This document shows positions 6,154 through 33,031 of a stretch of 33,031 bases of DNA, piece by piece. Origin of the DNA: Parcubacteria bacterium C7867-007 (GTDB lineage Bacteria; Patescibacteriota; Minisyncoccia; Phycocordibacterales; Phycocordibacteraceae); NCBI GenBank assembly GCA_001189195.1, contig LFCQ01000007.1, positions 1-33,031 on the forward strand. The letters run 5' to 3'. Both the position numbers and the translations under genes were made by a program. Under the pieces are notes generated by a model. That model searched no databases and had not been told where the DNA came from. It saw only the letters and a list, made by a program, of their open reading frames with translations. Numbering within the stretch: the first letter of the stretch is position 1; every line of letters begins with the position of its first letter.

Positions 6154-6450
6154 ATGAAAAAGAATGCTGGTATGGCATGGACCGTTGCAGGCGTACTCGC
6201 CGTAGTGGTCATTATCCTCCTGGCCATGATGGCAACAAGCTGGCAGGATAAGCAGCCAAAGAATCTGGACGATGTACTCCGCAATGGAAAAGAAGATATT
6301 TCAGAGCTGCGTGAACGTATCCGTATGGACTGCGCAAAGACTGATGAAGCAGGCAAGAAGATGTGTGAGAAGGATAAACAGGAACTAACTGAGCTCCTTA
6401 AGGAATTCAGCACTGATGTAACGTACTCAACCACTACTACTGCTAATTAG
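6154..6450 (+). CDS. Single-TM hypothetical protein
   Basis: MKKNAGMAWTVAGVLAVVVIILLAMMATSWQDKQPKN... acidic/basic helical C-terminus. Confidence 0.65.
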   Translation: MKKNAGMAWTVAGVLAVVVIILLAMMATSWQDKQPKNLDDVLRNGKEDISELRERIRMDCAKTDEAGKKMCEKDKQELTELLKEFSTDVTYSTTTTAN

Positions 6451-6520: not shown

Positions 6521-6549
6521 TTGTTGCAGAGCCGTTTTTGTGCTACTAT
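6521..6549 (+). promoter_or_regulatory. infC promoter with extended -10
   Basis: TTGTTG, 17-nt spacer, TGC-TACTAT; start codon 9 nt after the -10. Confidence 0.55.
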
Positions 6550-6558
6550 CCTCATACA

Positions 6559-7039
6559 TTGGCCACCGAACGAGTACGTATCAATCGAGAGATTACTGCG
6601 CGTGAACTACGCGTCGTAGGAGCCCAGGCAGAGAACCTGGGTGTTTTGAGTTTTGATGAGGCCTTTAAGAAGGCTCAGGAGCTTAATTTGGACCTCATTG
6701 AGATCTCTCCAAACGCCCTGCCTCCGGTTGCGAAAATCATGGATTATGGTAAATTCGAGTACGAGCGGAGCAAGAAAGAGAGTGCAGCTCGTTCCAAGGC
6801 GAAGGTCTCCGAAACCAAGGAACGCCGAGCTGTTCCTCAAAGGTCGCTATAAGGGAATGGATGAGGTCTTTCTCAAGACACGTCTCGAGAAGTTCCTACT
6901 TCTCATCCCGTACGCATACCGTATCGCTGAGCCGGTAGCGCGAGCGCCGAAAGGATTCGCAGCTATCATCGAGCGAGATCCAAAAGGTGCCACTGCTTCA
7001 GCACCTAAAAAAGAAGAAGCAAGTCCTGAACCTAAGTAA
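6559..7039 (+). CDS. infC: Translation initiation factor IF-3, reading frame apparently disrupted by a missing internal segment
   Basis: N-domain (RVRINREITARELRVVG...LDLIEISPNALPPVAKIMDYGKFEYE) in frame 1 to stop 6852; C-domain (LFLKGRYKGMDEVFLKTRLEKFLLLI...RAPKGFAAIIERD) in frame 2. TTG start proposed. Confidence 0.85.
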
Positions 7040-7044
7040 TTACT

Positions 7045-7236
7045 ATGAAAACCAACAAGTCATACACCAAGCGCATACGCGTCACCAAAACCGGCAAGCT
7101 CGTTGCGCGTAAGTCGGGTCAGGACCATTTCAATGCAAAGGAAGGAGGTCGCACCAAGAATGTGAAGAAGCATCCGGTTGATCTAACCGTGCCAAAGCGC
7201 ATTCGCCGTCAGTACCTTTCGCAGGTATCAAAGTAA
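7045..7236 (+). CDS. rpmI: 50S ribosomal protein L35
   Basis: MKTNKSYTKRIRVTKTGKLVARKSGQDHFNAK...; infC-rpmI-rplT order. Confidence 0.9.
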   Translation: MKTNKSYTKRIRVTKTGKLVARKSGQDHFNAKEGGRTKNVKKHPVDLTVPKRIRRQYLSQVSK

Positions 7237-7258
7237 TAGTTTCTATAATTAATTCTGT

Positions 7259-7609
7259 ATGTCACGAGTAAAAGGAGGAGTAAATTCAGCAAAGCGTCGT
7301 CGCAACATTCTTGCGCGTGCTAAGGGCTATCGCCATGGTCGCAGCACCAAGGTGCGCCTCGCAAAGGAGTCTCTCGTGCACGCTGGCAAGAATGCGTTCA
7401 ACCACCGCCGCGATAAGAAGACCGACTTCCGTAAGCTCTGGATCGTACGTCTTAACGCTGCTATTCGTGAGAACGGCTTCAAGTCATACAGTACTTTCAT
7501 TGCTGCCCTCACCAAGAAGGAGATCGCTCTAGACCGTAAGGTTCTCTCTGAGATCGCTCAGAATCAGCCAGAGTCCTTCACTCGCATCGCACAGAAGGTA
7601 ATGGCGTAA
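7259..7609 (+). CDS. rplT: 50S ribosomal protein L20
   Basis: MSRVKGGVNSAKRRRNILARAKGYRHGRS...LWIVRLNAAIRENGFKSYSTFI. Confidence 0.95.
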   Translation: MSRVKGGVNSAKRRRNILARAKGYRHGRSTKVRLAKESLVHAGKNAFNHRRDKKTDFRKLWIVRLNAAIRENGFKSYSTFIAALTKKEIALDRKVLSEIAQNQPESFTRIAQKVMA

Positions 7610-7627
7610 GTCACAAACACCTAAGAA

Positions 7628-9864: not shown

Positions 9865-10491
9865 TTAAATGTTCACGGTCTGCAGACAATATGAGCCGTC
9901 GATGTTAATGTCGTAGAGCATCGCTTCCTGCACATGGCGATATGCAATGATCTCTTGCGGAGTGAACCAGAGATTGATTTCTCCTTCTGCTTCTTCGGGT
10001 TGATCGGTGCAGTGAATGAGGTTTCGCACAGCACGATCATCCACGTTAGCCATTGCATAGGTATCGAGGGTGAGATCTCCACGAATAGTACCAACGTCTG
10101 ATACCGCAGGCTCCGTGGTGCCAACAAGTTTCTTAACAATAGCAACTGCTTGGTTACCCTCCCAAATCATCATCACCACAGGACCAAACGTCATGTACTT
10201 CTCAAGAGCACGGATAATATCTTTACCGTATTCAATCGGTTCCTTCTCTGCAGAAAGACCCGCACTCTTTCGGTTCTCAACAATACCGGTTCCCTTCTTG
10301 ATAAACCACGCATCATCCTTGTTGTAGTGCTTCCAGATGAGGTCTTTATCTGCAACGGTCATCTTGAGCGCAACAAGCTTGAGGCCAGTGCGTTCAAAGC
10401 GACTAATAATTTCACCTACCAGGTTACGCTGAATACCATCTGGCTTGATTATCACGAAGGTGCGCTCGGTCTTTGGGTGCGGAATAGCCAT
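9865..10491 (-). CDS. ndk: Nucleoside-diphosphate kinase with internal insertion and C-terminal extension
   Basis: ERTFVIIKPDGIQRNLVGEIISRFERTGLKLVALKM, VRNLIHCTDQPEEAEGEINLWF (active-site His); longer than typical Ndk. Confidence 0.88.
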   Translation of the reverse strand: MAIPHPKTERTFVIIKPDGIQRNLVGEIISRFERTGLKLVALKMTVADKDLIWKHYNKDDAWFIKKGTGIVENRKSAGLSAEKEPIEYGKDIIRALEKYMTFGPVVMMIWEGNQAVAIVKKLVGTTEPAVSDVGTIRGDLTLDTYAMANVDDRAVRNLIHCTDQPEEAEGEINLWFTPQEIIAYRHVQEAMLYDINIDGSYCLQTVNI

Positions 10492-32580: not shown

Positions 32581-32602
32581 ACCGTTTATATAGTTGAGGA
32601 GA

Positions 32603-33015
32603 TTACCAAGCGAAGTGAGCGAATGCCTTGTTGGCGTCTGCCATGCGGTGCATGTCGTCCTTCTTCTTGATTGCTGCACCTTCGTTCTTTACGCGCGTGC
32701 TGCATTGATGAGCCATCGGTATGCAAGAGATACGCGGCGCTGCTGGGGTACCTCACGTGGAACCTGGTAGTTTGCACCACCGACACGACGTGAACGAACC
32801 TCCATGAGTGGTGACACGTTACGGATTGCTGTCTCAAAGGTTTCAAGGGGATCAAGATCCTGCTCCTTAATCTTGTTGAGTGCTCCGTACACTACGGCAC
32901 GTGCTGTATCCTTCTTTCCGTCCCACATAACAGTGTTGATGAAGCGAGAGATTGCTTCAGAACCGTACTCTTGGTCCGGGCGGCGAGGATGCTTATTTTT
33001 TAGGGGATGTCGCAT
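32603..33015 (-). CDS. rpsG: 30S ribosomal protein S7, reading frame disrupted by a missing internal segment
   Basis: [35 protein letters not shown]...[10 protein letters not shown] in one frame; [28 protein letters not shown] in another frame. Confidence 0.88.
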
Positions 33016-33031
33016 GATTAAAAATTAAAGA

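Follow-up and report, generated by a model that had tools for sequence, protein, structure and literature searches.

The split of the IF-3 gene infC in the window, i.e., in the whole 33,031-nt contig C7 of the MAG Parcubacteria bacterium C7867-007 (G000), is in all likelihood a local assembly error, a real property of the deposited sequence but an artefact as far as the organism is concerned. The organism itself very probably carries a single, complete infC of the ordinary kind, followed as usual by rpmI and rplT. We favour an assembly error because the infC junction ends a run of sequence shared with the sister genome G041, because indels recur at shared runs of 99 nt, and because rpsG is broken likewise in the same contig. 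The original prediction had named assembly error as the default explanation, and these same three observations strongly favour it.

The G000 genome comprises 702,407 nt in 8 contigs, is rated 99.12% complete with 0.06% contamination, and is a Paceibacteria (Kaiserbacteria-type) MAG, its relatives in a GTDB scan being MAGs named Patescibacteria, Paceibacterota or Kaiserbacteria. The DNA of window positions 6540-7620 was compared with 92 other genomes of the genus, of which the sister MAG G041 is the nearest and G096 the next nearest. For the run-length test, every maximal exact match between the whole genomes of G000 and G041 was listed. The features discussed below are collected in Table 1.

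Table 1. Coordinates of the infC region, of rpsG and of the sequence runs shared with G041 (window numbering).
Feature	Position	Strand	Description
infC, both frames	6559-7039	+	frame 1 N-domain, then frame 2 C-domain remnant
infC 5' part	6559..6822	+	frame 1; IF-3 N-domain plus linker, 88 codons up to the junction, TTG at 6559 as probable start
infC identical run	6744..6822	+	79 nt, equal to bases 1-79 of G041:C3; right end is the junction
Junction	6822..6823		89 nt absent between two bases, from alignments to congeners; read as artefactual
infC 3' part	6823..7039	+	IF-3 C-domain remnant and tail; frame 2, stop at 7037-7039
rpmI (ribosomal protein L35)	7045..7236	+	intact; named by operon context and sequence; 97% identity to the G041 ORF, 66 residues
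rplT (ribosomal protein L20)	7259..7609	+	intact; PF00453, E 4.3e-35
99-nt identical run	32594..32692		shared with G041:C3 30872-30970; ends exactly at the rpsG deletion
rpsG (ribosomal protein S7)	32606..33015	-	only copy, split; 37-nt out-of-frame deletion at 32692/32693
Last 99 nt of the contig	32933..33031		identical to internal G041:C3 31248-31346

The 5' part of infC matches IF3_N (PF05198) above the cut-off (E 9.6e-29), shows 64-75% identity to the three congeners searched and 90% amino acid identity to G096, and reads in frame 1 as ...KVSETKERRAVPQRSL up to a stop at 6850-6852. The remnant in frame 2 reads AELFLKGRYKGMDEVFL...IIERDPK...PK and then terminates. No Pfam model matched this remnant, and IF3_C (PF00707) had no match in the whole G000 genome; the missing complete, in-frame IF3_C is attributed to the assembly error. 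The remnant nevertheless is 98% identical at the amino acid level to a C-domain query built from congeners (52-53 residues aligned) and differs from G041 by 14 synonymous and 3 nonsynonymous base changes over 54 codons; it is under purifying selection. Such conservation would not be expected of a gene broken long ago. In G000, infC is present in a single copy, upstream of rpmI and rplT. Its start at 6559 appears to be TTG, and congeners are likewise without an ATG near the conserved start. The 98-aa ORF upstream of infC (6154-6450) has a predicted-looking hydrophobic N-terminal stretch and matches DUF7198 only below the cut-off (E 2e-4).

Congener DNA aligns to infC as two blocks, the first ending at 6821 or 6822 and the second restarting at 6823 or a few bases further on (in the numbering of the 6540-7620 query, the first block reaches base 282 or 283, and matching begins again at 284 or slightly later). 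Contig C3 of G041 aligns over bases 1-79 and then from base 169 onward, and contig C3 of G096 aligns on its minus strand as blocks 187282-187564 and 186388-187192; each has exactly 89 nt more than the window. The original prediction had assigned the N-domain to frame 1, running to a stop, and the C-domain to frame 2; translation, the PF05198 match and the two-block alignment confirm this, and the interval 6811-6852 that it gave brackets the junction, now placed at 6822/6823. It had also expected about 30 conserved residues to be absent and the missing length to be 2 mod 3, as is the case for 89 nt (about 30 codons). The absent piece encodes, less one base, the 30 residues VQIKVG...HRVR of the IF-3 C-domain, which we take from the IF3 fold to be strand 1, helix 1 and the beginning of strand 2. 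A search for a second infC had been suggested as a check: neither a second infC nor the missing segment was found elsewhere in the G000 genome with PF00707, N-domain, C-domain, 30-aa and 89-nt queries. The sequences left and right of the junction both match G096, and their order there is the same, so that a chimera of two organisms at this point is not favoured.

A full-length C-domain match is present in 77 of the 92 congeners; in the others, infC is absent from the draft or is cut by contig ends or Ns, and no gapless internal infC deletion was found among the 92. Partial matches that could have been the same deletion turned out to be contig ends in G014 and G075 and a run of Ns in G044. In this last genome, a Kaiserbacteria MAG, about 98 Ns occupy positions of about 1543-1640 of the 82,007-nt contig C4 (locus L068, apparently MFMU01000004.1), in the same infC segment; they may be a scaffold gap or masking by the provider, and little weight is placed on them. 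Contig ends of congeners fall within infC in four cases, where a rough estimate gives about two; this clustering was not significant and was not used. The infC match at locus L062 (G089:C24), a congener, carries, as listed, a single in-frame TGA within its open frame.

The position of the junction relative to G041 is informative. G041:C3 starts inside infC, at the equivalent of 6744, and is identical to the window up to the junction, after which the window is 89 nt short. We infer that the identical run is really 99 nt long (6724-6822), only 79 nt being visible as G041:C3 starts there; a run of 99 nt followed by the 89 absent nt would make a shared stretch of 188 nt. The first 99 nt of G041:C3, the expected branch node, include 20 nt that are absent from the window, which implies that something else in the assembly had the intact continuation, an intact G000 infC being the obvious candidate. 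G041:C3 begins 20 nt, and not 89 nt, into the putative shared stretch; the simplest two-genome scheme does not predict this, and a third strain may account for it.

The same type of lesion is found in rpsG, near the end of the contig. In the window the rpsG frame switches and KKGKPMADKLAD is missing compared with G041, whose S7 occupies a single reading frame (PF00177, E 3.4e-49); PF00177 recognises only the 5' fragment of the window gene (E 4.9e-36), and the G000 genome contains no other complete rpsG. At both genes, the lesion ends a k-related run identical to the probably co-assembled G041, this run being exactly 99 nt at rpsG and 79 visible nt of a putative 99 nt at infC. That a single 33-kb contig has two broken universal genes, each at the end of a run shared with G041, makes biological explanations implausible.

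The pattern extends to the whole genome. Exact runs of 99 nt between G000 and G041 number 21, of which 11 are internal, while runs of 85-98 nt average 1.4 per length and runs longer than 102 nt do not occur. Directly to the right of internal runs of 99-102 nt, the alignment is lost in 15 of 16 cases, compared with 21 of the 134 runs that measure 50-98 nt (Fisher P 4.7e-10), and there is no excess of loss on the left (3 of 16 versus 19 of 134 shorter runs, P 0.71); the same lesion thus recurs at runs of k length and not at shorter ones. The shifts that could be measured at the 99-102-nt sites are 5, 6, 23, 24, 27, 32, 35, 37 and 43 nt, all below 99, and the shift at infC is 89 nt. Six of the 16 sites lose the alignment altogether, with no measurable indel, and some of these may be natural gene-end divergence. 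An apparent pile-up of runs at 59 and 79 nt (k = 60, 80) was dropped, as runs shorter than 99 nt mainly track codon periodicity and 79 is not enriched genome-wide. Within the window, four further right ends of 99-nt runs shared with G041 lie at 9894, 19765, 20423 and 24250, with an indel or a loss of alignment after each, and the sequence around these positions should be read cautiously.

The contig ends of the two genomes carry the same length. At nine of its 12 contig ends, G041 meets a G000 contig end with exactly 99 identical nt, and the final 81 nt of the window recur as bases 1-81 of contig C3 in its own genome. Overlaps between adjacent G000 contigs measure 81, 83, 85 and 37 nt; the last three of these values are found in G041 as well. 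Such values are to be expected of a de Bruijn assembly with k of about 100 if two species have 113-161 nt exactly in common and each contig extends 99 nt into that stretch. Judging from these overlap numbers, G000 (C1-C8) and G041 (C1-C6) probably come from one co-assembly. By their end overlaps, the G000 contigs can be ordered as C2-C8-C1, C4-C5 and C7-C3 (37, 85, 83 and 81 nt). The end overlaps left by assemblers equal maxK in the case of metaSPAdes and MEGAHIT or maxK-1 in the case of IDBA_UD (the COBRA paper, PMC10914622).

The one-sided pattern is observed directly, and a false join is the mechanism that we propose for it. Both genomes would have come from a single short-read de Bruijn assembly whose maximum k was about 100. 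At exact matches of more than 99 nt between the two species, the graph would have branched and the contigs ended; the assembler, a scaffolder or a curator would then have joined contigs on the assumption of an end overlap of exactly 99 nt. Such a join would remove, at the right end of the run, whatever the shared stretch has beyond 99 nt: 37 of 136 shared nt in rpsG and 89 of 188 in infC. One-sided losses of less than 99 nt would result if 99 nt were cut from the second contig before it was attached to a first contig with which its overlap was smaller. Scaffolding by IDBA_UD can introduce errors (PMC10914622), and uncorrected local assembly errors, suspected to be especially prominent in IDBA-UD assemblies, place incorrect protein-coding genes in databases (PMC7111523). 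The case described here resembles the local assembly errors of MAGs discussed in these papers in that contig ends are shared at a fixed length of k or k-1, breaks fall at regions common to genomes, and the resulting wrong coding genes have no counterpart in relatives. It differs from their emphasis on Ns, unsupported bases and repeat miscounts: here the deletion is clean, free of Ns and always to the right of a 99-nt run.

The alternative that survives best, although it is decidedly unlikely, is a real and very recent 89-nt deletion in the population, which would make infC a dying pseudogene or a minority variant picked up by the assembler. The deposited consensus carries the junction without Ns, and no microhomology is visible at the 6822/6823 join, so that a simple repeat collapse inside infC does not account for the loss. 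However, the affected gene is the only infC of G000, its remnant is conserved, and IF3, normally essential according to the original prediction, is described as essential (PMC8266586). A recent deletion would also need two coincidences, namely, a lesion of the same type at a 99-nt shared run in rpsG, on the same contig, and a sister contig that starts exactly at this place in infC.

A genuinely split or altered IF-3, the alternative offered by the original prediction, is very unlikely by the tests that favour the assembly error. In one form of it, the frame-1 N-domain would be followed by reinitiation at ATG 6857, which is in frame, lies five bases after the TAA at 6850-6852 and has AAGGG upstream, to give a separate C-terminal peptide and a functional two-piece IF-3. 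However, the intact infC of the sister genome contains the same Met and AAGGG (KGMDE; tataagggtatggac), which are thus inherited codons and no new start site. The second piece, moreover, would presumably be a C-domain without its first strand and first helix, for which the G000 genome has no coding segment elsewhere. No congener has such an arrangement, and the probability of this scheme is vanishingly small. Just as negligible is ribosomal frameshifting or hopping that restores one protein from the assembled sequence: the two parts do lie in adjacent frames around 6822, but by eye there is no slippery heptamer at GAACGCCGAGC, the product would still miss 30 conserved residues, and congeners have a single frame. 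It is highly improbable that we are dealing with a Kaiserbacteria-type CPR bacterium whose sole infC is truly broken, be it with an IF-3 that lacks the first strand and helix of the C-domain or with two IF-3 pieces.

Under the preferred explanation, assembly error, the N-domain, the gene order of the infC-rpmI-rplT operon and the conserved C-domain remnant are those of bacterial IF-3, and the absence of 89 nt of the C-domain and the change of frame set this infC apart from an ordinary one only as assembled. Both G000 and G041, rated nearly complete and low in contamination, carry systematic clean deletion joins that break universal genes (infC, rpsG), and completeness scores do not reveal such joins. 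The run-length histogram against a co-assembled sister genome provides a simple, read-free test for errors of this kind. With the split of infC explained in this way, the false claim of a bacterium living with a broken sole infC is removed.
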